Positions 59,194 through 64,000 of a DNA stretch of 64,000 nucleotides are shown here, in pieces. This DNA comes from Pseudomonadota bacterium (lineage in GTDB: Bacteria > Tectomicrobia > Entotheonellia > Entotheonellales > Entotheonellaceae). Made by a program: the position numbers and the translations under genes. The first letter of the stretch is position 1. Each line of letters begins with the position of its first letter. The notes under the pieces were generated by a model that saw only the letters and a program-made list of their open reading frames with translations, ran no database searches and was not told where the DNA came from. The stretch covers positions 1 through 64,000 of the forward strand of contig SXND01000234.1 in the NCBI GenBank assembly GCA_005777235.1. The letters are read 5' to 3'.

Positions 59194-59542
59194 GTGACGC
59201 TTTGCTGGGCAGAACGCCTACGAAGCCTCTCTCGGTTGGGGGTGGACTGCCTTGACGGTCACACGGACTGGTCGGCGCGTGGTCTGCGGCGCGCTGATGG
59301 GCTTTGTGCCTGGGAGCGCGGGCGTCCCACCCGCTCTGACAAACGGCCCGGCGGGCCGCGCTCCGAGAGCGGGTCCATCTACATGTTCTGTCAAAAATTT
59401 GACACAAGGAAAAAATATCGCGGACCAGGGGCACATCCCCTGGTCTCTCTGCCGACAGGGCTCTGCCCTCCGGGCCTAGAGTCCGGTCGGCTCCCCACAC
59501 ATGCAAAACCCGTCAAGAGTAAAAGGGTAAAAGGGCAAAGGG

Positions 59543-61213
59543 TTAGGGGACTGCCCTCAGCAGGCGAAAGCCCAGGATGTCGCTGCGGCCGCCCGGGACG
59601 ATGTGGCCGCGGCCCGCCGCCCGGCAGTCGCCGGCACCGTTGCCCCAGCTCCCGCCCCGGATCACCCGATAGGCGCCTGCTGCTGCAGCCCCCGCAGCAC
59701 CCACTGCAGGATCGACTGCAGCAGTTCCTGCAGCAGCTCTCTTTTTATACGCCTCGCTATCGTATATATCCTGCACCAACTCCCACACGTTCCCATGCAT
59801 GTCATGCAGTCCCCACGCGTTCGGCTGCAGCGTGCCTACCGGATGTGTCATCCAGCCAGCATTCGCGTGATACCACGCATAGCGCGCGAGCTGGCGCTCA
59901 TCATCACCATAGCAGTACGCTGCTGAGGAGCCAGCTCGCGCCGCGTATTCCCACTCGGCTTCTGTTGGCAGACGATACCCTGCGCCAGGTTCGCGGGTAT
60001 TGAGCTGCTGCAGAAAGTGCTGCACATCCTCCCAGGATACCCTCTCGACTGGACGTCGGAGATCTCCAACAAAGCAACTGGGGTTATCCCCCATGATGGC
60101 CTGCCACTGCGCTTGCGTCACCGGATATATCCCCATGGCAAAGGGCTGGCTGAGGCGCACCGTATGCACGGGCTTTTCATCATCAGACCCCGTCGCTGAG
60201 CCCATACGAAACTCCCCGGCGGGCAGCGTGGCGAAGACCAAGCCCAGGCTGTTCGTCCAGACGTGCTGCAGGCGTTGCACTTGCGCTACGGGCACGGCCA
60301 GGAGGCCATAGCGCGTCTGCACCGGCAGCGGATCGGGCGCCGTGATCGTGCCAGTCTGTGAGCTGCCATCATCAAGGCCCAGGCGTCCATCCACTAGTGC
60401 GACAATTTCCGCACTGTCAAGCTGCAGCGTCTCCACCGCGGTGGTAAAGGTCAACGGCACCTCGATACGGCCCATGAGGCGCTGTCCGCCCTCCAGGCTG
60501 AGGCACAGCGCGGCGCTGGCCTCCTGGGACTGCGCTGCCGCCTGGTAGGCCAGCGGCTGCAGCTGCTCGACTGGCAGGCTACGGTCGCGGCGTGGCGTGT
60601 GCACCGTGAGGGTGTCATTACTCAGCAGGCCGTGCAGCACCGTACCATCGGCAAACGTCCAGCGTTCGCCGTGTACGCTGACCAGTGCGCCCTCGGGCCC
60701 CTCCAAGCGCCCGCCGAGGGGCGAGGCCAGAGTGAGCGGCTGCGTCACGTCCCCGCGCACCGTGTCGCCGCTGCGCAGGGTGAGGGTGAGATCGCGCAGC
60801 GGCACCACCAGCTCCACCTGGCCGGGCGGCGGGGCCGTGGTGGCCGGGCGGGGCGCCGGCGCGGGACGCACCCCGGACTGCCCTGGCGCGGGGGACGCGC
60901 TCGGCAGCAGCCCCAGGGCCACAGCCCACGACTCCACGGCCCACCGGGCCGCCTGCGCTTCGAAAGGTGCCTGGTCTAGCAGGTTCTGCGTCAGCCGGGG
61001 CAGCAGCAGCGCCACCGGCTGCTGCTGTACGCCATCCATCAGGGCCTGGTACAGGCCATGCTCCAGAGCCCAGAGCAAGGCGGTGCGCTGACGCTGGCTC
61101 ATATCCTGCGGATGATCGCTCAGCAGGCTGCGACAGCGTTTCGGGTCAGTCGCCAGCGTGTGGCCATATTGGGTGATGAGTTGCACGAGCAGGTATCGGG
61201 GACGGTCATCCAT
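59543..61213 (-). CDS. DGR target: FGE-sulfatase (C-type-lectin-like fold) protein with variable C-terminus
   Basis: A 556-residue protein from ATG 61213 (GGAG nine bases upstream). The N-terminal ~95 residues form a conserved helical domain (YLLVQLITQYGHTLATDPKR, LLSDHPQ, FEAQAARWAVESWAVALG). A Pro/Ala linker and ~190 beta-rich residues follow, then the formylglycine-generating-enzyme-like domain from ~325 (PAGEFRMGS, YPVTQAQWQAIMG, RLPTEAEWEYAARAG, WGLHDMHGNVWELVQD). The last ~40 residues (RVIRGGSWGNGAGDCRAA onward) are the variable repeat. An Ala-rich insertion lies just before it. No signal peptide. The domain is probably a ligand-binding scaffold, not an enzyme. Confidence 0.88.
   Translation of the reverse strand: MDDRPRYLLVQLITQYGHTLATDPKRCRSLLSDHPQDMSQRQRTALLWALEHGLYQALMDGVQQQPVALLLPRLTQNLLDQAPFEAQAARWAVESWAVALGLLPSASPAPGQSGVRPAPAPRPATTAPPPGQVELVVPLRDLTLTLRSGDTVRGDVTQPLTLASPLGGRLEGPEGALVSVHGERWTFADGTVLHGLLSNDTLTVHTPRRDRSLPVEQLQPLAYQAAAQSQEASAALCLSLEGGQRLMGRIEVPLTFTTAVETLQLDSAEIVALVDGRLGLDDGSSQTGTITAPDPLPVQTRYGLLAVPVAQVQRLQHVWTNSLGLVFATLPAGEFRMGSATGSDDEKPVHTVRLSQPFAMGIYPVTQAQWQAIMGDNPSCFVGDLRRPVERVSWEDVQHFLQQLNTREPGAGYRLPTEAEWEYAARAGSSAAYCYGDDERQLARYAWYHANAGWMTHPVGTLQPNAWGLHDMHGNVWELVQDIYDSEAYKKRAAAGTAAVDPAVGAAGAAAAGAYRVIRGGSWGNGAGDCRAAGRGHIVPGGRSDILGFRLLRAVP
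59547..59668 (-). repeat. DGR variable repeat (VR)
   Basis: This 122 bp segment matches the template repeat at 62241-62362 at a fixed offset of 2694. Across the mutagenised core 13 of 14 differences fall on template adenines (11 A-to-G, 2 A-to-T on the coding strand); the other is one C-to-T. Two further differences near the gene's 3' end (59554-59555) fall in the presumed homing region. Nine AAC/GAT/GAC codons have become Gly, Asp, Val, Ser or Ile. It ends at the target gene's stop codon, the usual position. Confidence 0.92.
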
Positions 61214-61248
61214 ACATTGCGTCTCCTCAGTCAGTACGATCGCGGGCC

Positions 61249-61782
61249 TCATCCCCGGCGGCACGCTGACTGGCTTCGCGGTGCGCTTGCTTCTAAAGCG
61301 CGTTCACACAGCCGAGCGCTAATCCAGAGGTCAGGACGCCGCTTGATGGTCTCCATGAGCTGGCCGAAGGTGTGGAACGAGAGGTGGTGGTGACGCCAGG
61401 CAGCGAGCAAGAGACCCACCGTCCCTTTGAGAGGTAGTCCGAGTCCACGCGCCGCGTGTCGCGCGTGTTCATTGTCGATCAGCACCCAGTCGGTGACCTG
61501 CTGCTGGGCCAGGACAAGCACTTCGATCTCACCAGCATCCAACGGCTGTGCCCAGTTTGGGAGGGATACGGGCATGGCCACGTCCACCACCTGGATCGCG
61601 GCCTGACGCACGAGGGCCTCAACGGCTGGCGCCTCAGCAGCGCCAAGACGCAAGCCGTTGCTGACCACTTCGTGATAGACCTCCCGTGGGATGCGGATCA
61701 TGCCATAGAGCCTGGCCAACAGCGGCAGGTGGCCCAGCTTGCCCAGGGCAATGAGCGGGCCAGCGTTACTCACTACGTTCAT
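61249..61782 (-). CDS. DUF3368 PIN-like toxin
   Basis: A 177-residue PIN-fold RNase-like protein, with the family start VVSNAGPLIALGKLG (first Asp replaced by Asn, as is common in DUF3368), PREVYHEVV, LDAGEIEVLVLAQQ near residue 95, VLIDNEHARHAARGLGL near residue 115 and KGTVGLLLAAW. Its ATG overlaps the antitoxin stop (ATGA). The pair lies between the DGR template and the target gene. Toxicity is inferred from family and partner. Confidence 0.85.
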   Translation of the reverse strand: MNVVSNAGPLIALGKLGHLPLLARLYGMIRIPREVYHEVVSNGLRLGAAEAPAVEALVRQAAIQVVDVAMPVSLPNWAQPLDAGEIEVLVLAQQQVTDWVLIDNEHARHAARGLGLPLKGTVGLLLAAWRHHHLSFHTFGQLMETIKRRPDLWISARLCERALEASAPRSQSACRRG

Positions 61783-62042
61783 GCCAACTCCTCGCCGATG
61801 GTCTCATCCCCCACCAGCGCTTGCACCCCATGGGCCACCGCATACTGCATCATCTCCCTCAACGACACGCCGGCCAGCCGGGCGGCTTTCCAGAGGGAGA
61901 TCTCCCCATGCTGATAACGTGTCAGGCTCTGGGCTTTGTGCACTTCCTGCAAACCGAGACGAAGTACCTCCGGCAGGGTGTCATGATACGGAGCGAGTTG
62001 GGCAGAGAGTTCGTCAGGGATGGCAATGGTCACCGTCGGCAT
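61779..62042 (-). CDS. UPF0175 family antitoxin
   Basis: An 87-residue protein: TVTIAIPDELSAQL at the N-terminus (ribbon-like strand), then LRLGLQEVHKAQSL and the helix-turn-helix signature GEISLWKAARLAGVSLREMM. AGGAGG lies upstream of ATG 62042. It overlaps the DUF3368 toxin gene by four bases; UPF0175-DUF3368 is a recognised toxin-antitoxin pairing. The frame upstream to 62690 is open by chance through the template repeat. Confidence 0.87.
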   Translation of the reverse strand: MPTVTIAIPDELSAQLAPYHDTLPEVLRLGLQEVHKAQSLTRYQHGEISLWKAARLAGVSLREMMQYAVAHGVQALVGDETIGEELA

Positions 62043-62240
62043 AGGTTGGCCTCCTGGTGTGTGAGAGGGCGTCAAGATGGCAACCCGCAGGTACCGCGAC
62101 GGCCGTCGTACTGTCTCGCACAGCCTACCAGACGTCGCGGCCATAGGCTCTTTGGCTGGCCAGTGGCCAGCGCCGGATGCCGCACCTGGACAGATCCTTG
62201 GGCGCACAGGGGCCGTCCGTAGACGTCCCCTTCTGGCCAC

Positions 62241-62362
62241 GGGACTGTGCTCAGCAGGCGAAAGCCCGGGTTGTCGTTGCGGTTGCCCGGGTCGATGTGG
62301 TTGCGGTTCGCCGCCCGGCAGTTGCCGGCATCGTTGTTCCAGCTCCCGCCCCGGATCACCCG
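62241..62362 (-). repeat. DGR template repeat (TR)
   Basis: The 122 bp donor copy. On the minus strand it reads as the FGE C-terminus with many AAC codons (SWNNDAGNCRAANRNHIDPG, NRNDNPGF), the pattern that lets adenine-specific mutagenesis reach many amino acids. No FGE gene precedes it. It lies between the toxin-antitoxin pair and the HigA relic, ~835 bases downstream of the reverse transcriptase stop. The flanking 62043-62240 and 62363-62714 hold no gene apart from the palindrome at 62470. Confidence 0.92.
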
Positions 62363-62469
62363 CTGGGCACCTGCACGGTGGGCACCCTGGCGGAGAGGAT
62401 AGCGTATCACGTGGCGGGAGGAAAGGCCCTGCAGGAGACCCAGCGCACTGTGATGATGCAAGGCCTTGT

Positions 62470-62529
62470 CCTGGGAGCGCGGGCGTCCCGCCCGCCTCCG
62501 GAGCGGGCGAGACGCCCGCGCTCCCAGGG
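62470..62529. repeat. Palindromic repeat of the TGGGAGCGCG family
   Basis: CCTGGGAGCGCGGGCGTC at the left is the inverse of GACGCCCGCGCTCCCAGG at the right, with inner GCCCGC/GCGGGC arms. It is a near-perfect 18 bp stem located between the template repeat and the HigA relic. Related copies are scattered through the window. Confidence 0.65.
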
Positions 62530-62714
62530 TCGGACAAGCCAACAACCAACAACTGAATGACCCTGGGAGACCTTGCGCACCGTCGACGTGCGGTCGCAGC
62601 GTGCGGCACAGGTCTCCGCGACAAGGCCATGGTCCTGGCACAGGCCTGCACGCGCTGCCTGGTGGCAGACGTTCCAAGCTGTCGACCCACGCCCGGTGCG
62701 GTACTGCGTCAGTG

Positions 62715-63095
62715 CTACTTGATCAGCAGATCGGCTGGAATGCCTCAGTGCTCTCGCAGTTGCGCAATTTGTGGCAGTGACAGACTACCGGTCCCTTGCA
62801 AAAAGGTCCGCAGTGGGTTTTCGCCTCCCAACCATTGCCTTAAATCCGCCTGTGAAAAACCTTTTTGCTCTAACATAAAGGTCACGACATCTTGCGGCGT
62901 TGTGAGCTGCCCAAGGGGAAAGGATGCCTCTTCATAGGCGTGTACGAGCACCGAGAGAAATTCTAGCCGCTCGTAGTCCTCGGAACAGGGTGGTGGATCC
63001 AGGTCAAGAAGCTGGTCAATTTCCACCACGGCAGCCGTATATTCGGTGGCGTTGCGTAAAACATGCGGTTTGGTAAAGTCAAGCAGTTCAGCCAT
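62715..63095 (-). pseudogene. HigA-type antitoxin with a premature TGA near its C-terminus
   Basis: From ATG 63095: TKPHVLRNATEYTAAVVEID, LLDLDPPPCSEDYERLEFLS, FPLGQLTTPQDVVTFMLEQK (start of the XRE-like helix-turn-helix), GFSQADLRQWLGG, then QIAQLREH, TGA at 62745-62747, then GIPADLLIK and a normal TAG at 62715. Family members end LREHFGIPADLLI or similar, so one codon was hit ten codons from the end. The truncated 116-residue product keeps the whole DNA-binding part and might still work. Confidence 0.75.
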
Positions 63096-63102
63096 GCTCG
63101 CC

Positions 63103-63165
63103 TCACGTGCCGTGATGTTGTGGGGTGTGGCCGTGCTGTAAGCGCTGCCGTGTGATCACGTGCAT
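63103..63165 (-). pseudogene. Remnant of a HigB-type toxin gene
   Basis: Just ahead of the HigA relic, ATG 63165 opens a 20-codon frame beginning MHVITRQRLQ, which matches the N-terminus of HigB mRNA interferases (MHVISRKRL), then degenerates and stops at 63103. The rest of the ~100-codon toxin is absent. An internal deletion that kept both ends of the gene would produce this. Confidence 0.5.
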
Positions 63166-63196
63166 CGGTCTCGAGGCTCCCGCTGCCCTGCGCCCC

Positions 63197-64000
63197 TCAC
63201 TCCCACAAGCGCCGCCGGGCTGTCAGCGTATTGGCATGCTGTGCATGCCCTAGCCGACTGGCCACAGAGCGGCGCAACGTGTCTTGGTCCATCCGCCCGG
63301 CCTGATACGCCGCTTCGCGCCGCCGGATACGGCGCTGCCAGCGCGCCCACTTGCGCCCATCCACCCGCAGCAGGCCGGGAAAGATGCGCAAGCCAAGAAA
63401 CGGCAGGCCCTGTGTCACTGGCATGACGCGCACCACTTCGTCTTTGAGCTGCAGATGCAAGTCGTCATGCAGAAAGGCGCGCACCACGGCCAGCGTCTCA
63501 TGCAAAAACGGCTTGTCCGGCGCAAACAGCAGCACATCGTCCATATAGCGCACATAGCCCGGACAGCGCAGACGGTCTTTGACCAGATGATCGAGGGGGC
63601 TCAAATACAGGTTGGCAAAATACTGACTCGTGAGGTTGCCAATCGGCACGCCCTGGCCGGGGGCGCCCGTGGGCAGAGGGTGGTCGATGATGTGATCGAG
63701 CAGGGCCAGCAGGGCAGGGTCTTTCAAGAAGCGCCGTAGCAGGCGCTTCAAGACCGCGTGGTCGATGGTCTCGAAGTAATGGCGCATGTCTCCCTGCAAC
63801 ACATAGGGCCACTGGCGGGCAAAGTGCTGGGCACGGCGCACCGCGGCGTGGGTGCCTTTACCACGCCGGCAGGCGTAGGTGTCGTGGATGAGGGTGGCCT
63901 CGAAGAGTGGATCGAGCACATGGCAGATGGCGTGCTGCACCACGCGGTCGCGGAACGCTGCAGCGCAGATCTGACGGCGCTTGGGTTCAAAGATGGTAAA
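63197..64000 (-). CDS. DGR reverse transcriptase (partial; N-terminus beyond the window)
   Basis: The C-terminal 267 residues are in the window and the frame is open through base 64000. Visible motifs: FEPKRRQICAAAFRDRVVQH, motif A LQGDMRHYFETIDH (catalytic Asp), motif B QGVPIGNLTSQYFANLYLSP with the IGxLxSQ form typical of DGR enzymes, motif C RYMDDVLLFA (two catalytic Asp) and downstream QGLPFLGLRIFPG. It copies the template RNA with adenine infidelity. No avd gene is visible on this side. Confidence 0.93.
   Translation of the reverse strand, partial: FTIFEPKRRQICAAAFRDRVVQHAICHVLDPLFEATLIHDTYACRRGKGTHAAVRRAQHFARQWPYVLQGDMRHYFETIDHAVLKRLLRRFLKDPALLALLDHIIDHPLPTGAPGQGVPIGNLTSQYFANLYLSPLDHLVKDRLRCPGYVRYMDDVLLFAPDKPFLHETLAVVRAFLHDDLHLQLKDEVVRVMPVTQGLPFLGLRIFPGLLRVDGRKWARWQRRIRRREAAYQAGRMDQDTLRRSVASRLGHAQHANTLTARRRLWE

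Follow-up and report, generated by a model that had tools for sequence, protein, structure and literature searches.

A phased 8-bp array behind the targets of an Entotheonellaceae diversity-generating retroelement and of other cellular elements with Avd: a putative target mark

Introduction

How does a diversity-generating retroelement (DGR) find its target genes when several of them lie elsewhere in the genome? Target finding by the cDNA is the least understood step of DGR function, and work on it comes mostly from phage BPP-1, which has a stem-loop at the target. The question is raised here by a DGR near the end of a stretch of 64,000 nucleotides (the window, bases 1-64000 of the 70,269-bp contig C219, GenBank SXND01000234.1) from the draft genome of an Entotheonellaceae bacterium (6.03 Mb in 284 contigs, 89.7% complete, 6.7% contamination). 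A reading of the window from its letters alone (the sequence-only reading) had proposed that a reverse transcriptase (RT), a template repeat (TR), and a variable repeat (VR) in this region form a DGR. That reading is upheld: judged by its sequence, the element is a genuine DGR, and a cellular element of the Avd and HRDC kind with at least six targets is very probably the explanation of the locus. The DGR itself belongs to a well-known kind; what is new is an array of 8-bp period behind its targets.

Results

One template repeat and six variable repeats

The core of the element lies on the minus strand.

59543..61216, minus strand: VR1 target gene, 557 amino acids, with a C-terminal FGE-sulfatase/CLec domain (PF03781, 8e-47) ending in VR1
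59547..59668, minus strand: VR1, with 16 mismatches to the TR, 14 of them at TR adenines
62241..62362, minus strand: TR, with the IMH* (initiation of mutagenic homing) end GAGCACAG; the VR counterpart is GAGGGCAG
63197..64000, minus strand: C-terminal part of the RT inside the window; the whole gene is contig C219 63197-64192, 331 amino acids
Contig C219 65243-66697 or longer, minus strand: VR2 gene (FGE), beyond the window

The TR and VR1 align over 122 bp at exactly the positions first proposed, with VR1 at the 3' end of an FGE-fold gene as had been seen. The 16 mismatches comprise 12 A-to-G and 2 A-to-T changes, C95T, and C114G. With 26 adenines among the 122 TR positions, a binomial model gives a probability of 3e-8 that 14 or more of the 16 mismatches fall at A. 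The original count of 13 of 14 core mismatches at template adenines (11 A-to-G) is correct for the repeat without its IMH end, the final 9 bp. Mismatches cluster at TR adenines in all six VRs described below (84 of 99; 55 to G, 22 to T, and 7 to C), a pattern that, on the alignments, is the trace of past adenine mutagenesis at this locus. The sequence-only reading had also called VR1 strongly glycine-shifted. A-to-G changes are the majority (12 of 14), but the excess over the other five VRs (43 of 70) was not significant (Fisher p = 0.07), and we rejected the idea that VR1 is special in this respect. The difference between IMH and IMH* is present, GAGG in the VR and GAGC in the TR, as in many relatives.

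A genome search for further VRs of this TR, which had been suggested as a check, found five beyond VR1: VR2 on the same contig and one each on contigs C271, C194, C168, and C205. PF03781 was found in the VR1, VR2, C271, C194, and C168 targets, always with the FGE domain C-terminal. The N-terminal region of the VR1 target belongs to no recognised family; that of the C194 target is a protein kinase, and the others appear by eye to be transmembrane (VR2), a coiled coil (C271), and a signal peptide with a QP repeat (C168). The C205 VR lies in a short truncated frame, and this target is probably broken. Upstream of the VR, the VR1, VR2, C168, and C205 targets share an Ala-rich linker (e.g., YKKRAAAGSAAVDPAV); other FGE genes of the genome, which has about 40 in all, have a shorter loop.

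Sequence beyond position 64000 completed the RT, which carries both of the motifs reported for it, IGNLTSQ and YMDD. The sequence-only reading had allowed that a complete RT might group with group II introns or retrons. Instead, in a tree of 103 RTs, each from a locus with a TR/VR pair, it falls inside the DGR RTs, with that of Prosthecochloris pPAES01 (SH-aLRT 89). Its identity to the 80 top-scoring relatives retained is ∼40 to 55%; most of these have TR/VR pairs of their own, and their hosts include Bdellovibrionales, Elusimicrobia, Deltaproteobacteria, Planctomycetes, Treponema, and others. The minus-strand order is VR2 gene, HRDC protein (PF00570, 1e-17), Avd (bAvd PF22296, 2e-18; DivGenRetAVD NF033474, 3e-30), RT, a 116-amino-acid open reading frame (ORF), TR, a UPF0175/DUF3368 pair, and the VR1 gene. 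The parts, the adenine-directed differences, the several targets, the IMH/IMH* difference, and the family of the RT can all be seen in the sequences themselves.

The genome also holds a sister cassette.

G000:C92:1-4600 (locus L014): HRDC, Avd, TR, and an RT without about its first 170 residues

The TR of this cassette looks intact and matches five VRs: C92b, a TIR-FGE gene on C92, C93, a caspase-FGE gene on C158, and C54, the last a weak match with 18 of 40 mismatches at A. Perhaps the cassette is served in trans by the C219 RT. The TIR and caspase targets belong to the sister TR, and the kinase and coiled-coil targets belong to the C219 TR. Two more Avd DGRs, at C39:60879-61814 and C147:4456-5487, bring TR/VR pairs of their own, and their flanks resemble the array described below.

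An array directly behind every target

The element behind VR1 is as follows.

59514..59545, minus strand: stop codon (59543-59545) and array of 8-bp period, unit TACCCTTT (TAACCCTTTGCCCTTTTACCCTTTTACTCTT), 3' of VR1

An imperfect 8-bp array with this consensus lies directly 3' of the stop codon in 11 of 11 targets of the C219 and sister TRs. In an alignment of VR 3' ends, TAACCCTNTGCCCTNTTACCCTNTTACCCT stands right behind the VR genes and not behind the TR. Searched genome-wide with up to 3 mismatches, this pattern gave 11 matches, all behind VR genes, and its reversed control gave none. Two targets that the TR search had missed, C158 and the TIR gene on C92, were found by their arrays. The array is absent behind a caspase-FGE gene on C250, which is not a clear target. 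Beyond the arrays, sequence is unrelated among targets. No stem-loop of the BPP-1 type (GC-rich, 7- to 10-bp stem, 4-nt loop, within ∼35 bp of the VR) was found in the 45 nt that follow each of these arrays at VR1 and VR2, where the best stem was 2 to 3 bp.

The array in other DGRs

TR/VR pairs at the 80 RT-related loci were called by script and the 3' side of each VR was inspected, the flank calls depending on BLAST ends. In the nearest 27 loci, CTT pairs at a spacing of 8 occurred 36 times in VR flanks and 0 times in TR flanks. This grouping was drawn after the flanks had been seen, and fresh loci were therefore used to test the array. The weight matrix for this test (four units with TACCCTTT as consensus, spaced by 7 to 9) was trained on the first set and then frozen; significance was p ≤ 0.01 against dinucleotide-Markov resampling. 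The second set came from a search of 386 genomes plus plasmids, cyanobacteria included, and its 21 Avd DGRs include two that are phage-like and array-free. In these held-out loci, the frozen matrix found the array in 15 of 21 Avd DGRs and in no TR flank.

No array was detected in HRDC-only DGRs (0 of 38, both sets) or in viral Avd DGRs (0 of 11), and among viral loci with neither Avd nor HRDC it was found in 2 of 51, the two being near-identical. It is absent from both Avd-less RT groups, including a small one nested among Avd and HRDC elements (L049, L051, and L055). The distribution across these sequences suggests that the array is linked to Avd. A tie to HRDC was rejected, the HRDC-only DGRs being without array. 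We also rejected the idea that the array pairs with the TR RNA: the TR of the same locus paired no better than the TRs of other loci (Wilcoxon p = 0.31). The VR 3' flanks of HRDC-only DGRs (L072, L073, L080, L089, L099, L100, and others) are of a different make, purine-rich with GCARG repeats and GC stem-loops; at least two GCARG repeats occur in 12 of 38 of these VR flanks and 0 of 38 TR flanks.

Among CTT arrays of at least 4 units in 3.36 Mb, 31 of 59 start -10 to 80 nt from a VR end. Units are spaced by 8 bp in 56%, 7 bp in 32%, and 9 bp in 12% of cases, and a stem-loop lies 3' of the array in 12 of 40. The stop codon fixes the position of the array (median +5 nt, standard deviation 6.7, 85% within -6 to +12) more closely than the VR end does (standard deviation 21). 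At L059, L096, and L254, the VR is followed by ∼70 to 100 nt of coding sequence and the array comes only after that. A search of the DGR literature found no mention of the array; one DGR survey, Wu et al. 2018 (NAR), said to be a large one, was outside its coverage, so an earlier description is possible.

Other features of the locus

The remaining features lie between the RT and the VR1 gene.

61249-61782, minus strand: DUF3368 gene (E 5e-4)
61779-62045, minus strand: UPF0175-like gene (E 3e-6)
62124..62240, minus strand: TR RNA 3' tail, structured and conserved in DGRs of several phyla
62363..63196, minus strand: RT-TR interval, ∼0.83 kb, holding the 116-amino-acid ORF and an inverted repeat
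62472-62526: the inverted repeat, between RT and TR

Of 25 base pairs predicted in this RNA tail, 13 show compensatory changes (10 sequences). The stretch (window 62100-62262, minus strand; compared in L030-L042) keeps a GUYYAYGGAY loop and a CCAGG box across phyla, and its stems covary. An Rfam search near the TR and RT, this stretch included, gave no credible match, and the tail could serve as a new RNA family model. The UPF0175-like and DUF3368 genes between the TR and VR1 are probably a toxin-antitoxin pair outside the DGR proper. Such probable pairs lie within and beside the DGR, the other being at L008 8836-10320 (PIN-like). The 116-amino-acid ORF (62745-63095) had no Pfam or NCBIfam match. 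A repeat, TGGGAGCGCGGGCGTC(C/T)CGCCCGC, occurs in the window at 59311-59334 and, as an inverted pair, at 62472-62526; a similar sequence is seemingly read in frame within the C271 target (GSAGVSPAQ).

Discussion

By analogy with the DGR family, from which we infer both how the element works and that its targets serve as sensors, the RT and Avd would reverse-transcribe the TR RNA, whose 3' tail has a conserved fold, and make errors at adenines. The resulting cDNA would then take the place of the corresponding 3' ends in six or more genes with FGE/CLec domains, of which two neighbour the RT and four are remote. The array would mark the target for the Avd-bearing complex, either as DNA or as a ribosome-free mRNA tail, and would do the job of the phage DGR stem-loop or work alongside one. 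We give even chances to the array being such a putative target mark. Slightly less assured is the broader proposal that the array in cellular Avd DGRs of many phyla is an undescribed cis element that the Avd-RT complex reads to choose targets and spare the template. The array may act in ribosome-free RNA, or as a DNA element unable to be coding, because its position follows the stop codon and its distance from the VR end varies.

Several observations weigh against this account. About one third of Avd DGRs do not pass the array test in its strict form, and the RT tree offers few independent changes (2 to 4 contrasts) by which to link Avd with the array. Placement by the stop codon also fits a termination or mRNA-stability element. 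At C219 itself, a Pro codon in the TR and the 0.83 kb that separate it from the RT point to disuse.

The last point raises the possibility that the C219 DGR is dying, its TR mutated and no copying having occurred since. TR codon 94-96, ahead of Gly-Phe-Arg, is CCG (Pro), and the six VRs have CTG (five) or CAG (one). Relatives (∼50 TR/VR pairs) mostly encode Leu, Ile, or Val here, and a non-adenine difference between TR and VR never occurs at this codon. The TR may not have been copied recently, because the Pro codon is missing from all six VRs: the base may have mutated in the TR later than the last transfer to these VRs, copies with Pro may not be kept, or the base may be an assembly error. 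The insert between RT and TR, a gap of some tens of base pairs in most relatives, and the loss of the N-terminal half of the RT in the sister cassette point the same way. Set against decay are the RT, Avd, HRDC, IMH*, and folded TR tail, all of which look intact, and a single TR base might be recent, polymorphic, or an assembly error. We regard a dying element as possible, though doubtful.

For the array, the main rival to a target mark is a transcript element, for example a Rho-utilisation-like C-rich, G-poor stretch, that would end transcription or stabilise the mRNA and have no direct part in homing. The array is C- and U-rich with regular C clusters, and it keeps to the stop codon even where the VR ends ∼70 to 100 nt earlier (L059, L096, and L254). 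However, it occurs in this genome only after DGR targets despite the other FGE genes and thousands of other genes, and the targets of HRDC-only DGRs, proteins of the same kind, lack it. A transcript element seems unlikely to us. It is improbable that the array is a functionless hitch-hiker, a remnant copied with VR ends as target genes multiplied. Within the genome, VR, stop codon, and array could have spread as a single block, and the linker upstream of the VR is alike in several targets; yet the flanks past the array are unrelated, and the phase is kept across phyla while the letters of the unit vary.

The pilE G-quadruplex of Neisseria antigenic variation offers a comparison for a further reading, in which an antisense-strand quadruplex would hold the sense strand open for the cDNA. 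Several arrays here (e.g., C271 and C92b) fit antisense GGG-N4/5-GGG and a 2026 study favours single-stranded target access (PMC12875486), but we consider this reading very improbable and reject the quadruplex as the element in general. Outside this genome GGG is not conserved: across phyla, conservation of the CCC in the unit is only 0.67/0.56 per position while CTT (the search seed) and the 8-bp phase are kept, and the quadruplex pattern occurs in only 1 of 70 flanks. A literature search found no paper linking DGRs with quadruplexes.

Like Bordetella phage BPP-1 (PMC3240598, PMC12875486), the C219 system has an RT, Avd, TR, VR, the IMH/IMH* pair, and an element immediately 3' of the VR. BPP-1 needs its inverted repeat, a stem-loop 3' of the VR that increases homing (PMC3240598; PMC12875486), whereas the C219 VRs are followed by a phased array with no clear stem-loop; by analogy we infer that the array is the counterpart or the partner of the BPP-1 stem-loop. 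Close in layout is the DGR of Prosthecochloris aestuarii pPAES01 (L294), which has the order FGE, HRDC, Avd, RT, TR, FGE, an RT 55% identical, and an array behind the VR that is visible by eye (CTT chain of 2). Unlike C219, it is on a conjugative plasmid, with two targets seen and no large RT-TR gap. Cyanobacterial DGRs (Nostoc, Fischerella, Acaryochloris, and Microcystis plasmids; PMC7517822) share Avd, FGE targets, and TACCCTTT arrays, but lack HRDC and often have a GC-rich stem-loop after the array.

Clade-5 DGRs such as that of Thiohalocapsa PB-PSB1 (PMC10907252) resemble this genome in having several DGRs per genome, remote targets, degenerate sister loci, and targets that join kinase, TIR, and caspase-like domains to FGE/CLec domains, a likeness in targets and loci. 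That study concerns another organism, and its main text names no 3' element at the target. It proposes an "antigen sensor" role for DGR targets (PMC10907252). Targets here are fused to or near conflict effector domains, a kinase (C194), TIR (C92), and caspase (C158), the last two of the sister TR; these and the coiled-coil fusion, read from their domains, fit the proposal.

An array that tags most cellular Avd DGR targets and is absent from both RT groups without Avd would make the target-finding step testable. It would also be a simple way to find remote target genes, as with the two that the TR search missed here. If it is true that Avd reads the array, this would be a second role for Avd, at the target.

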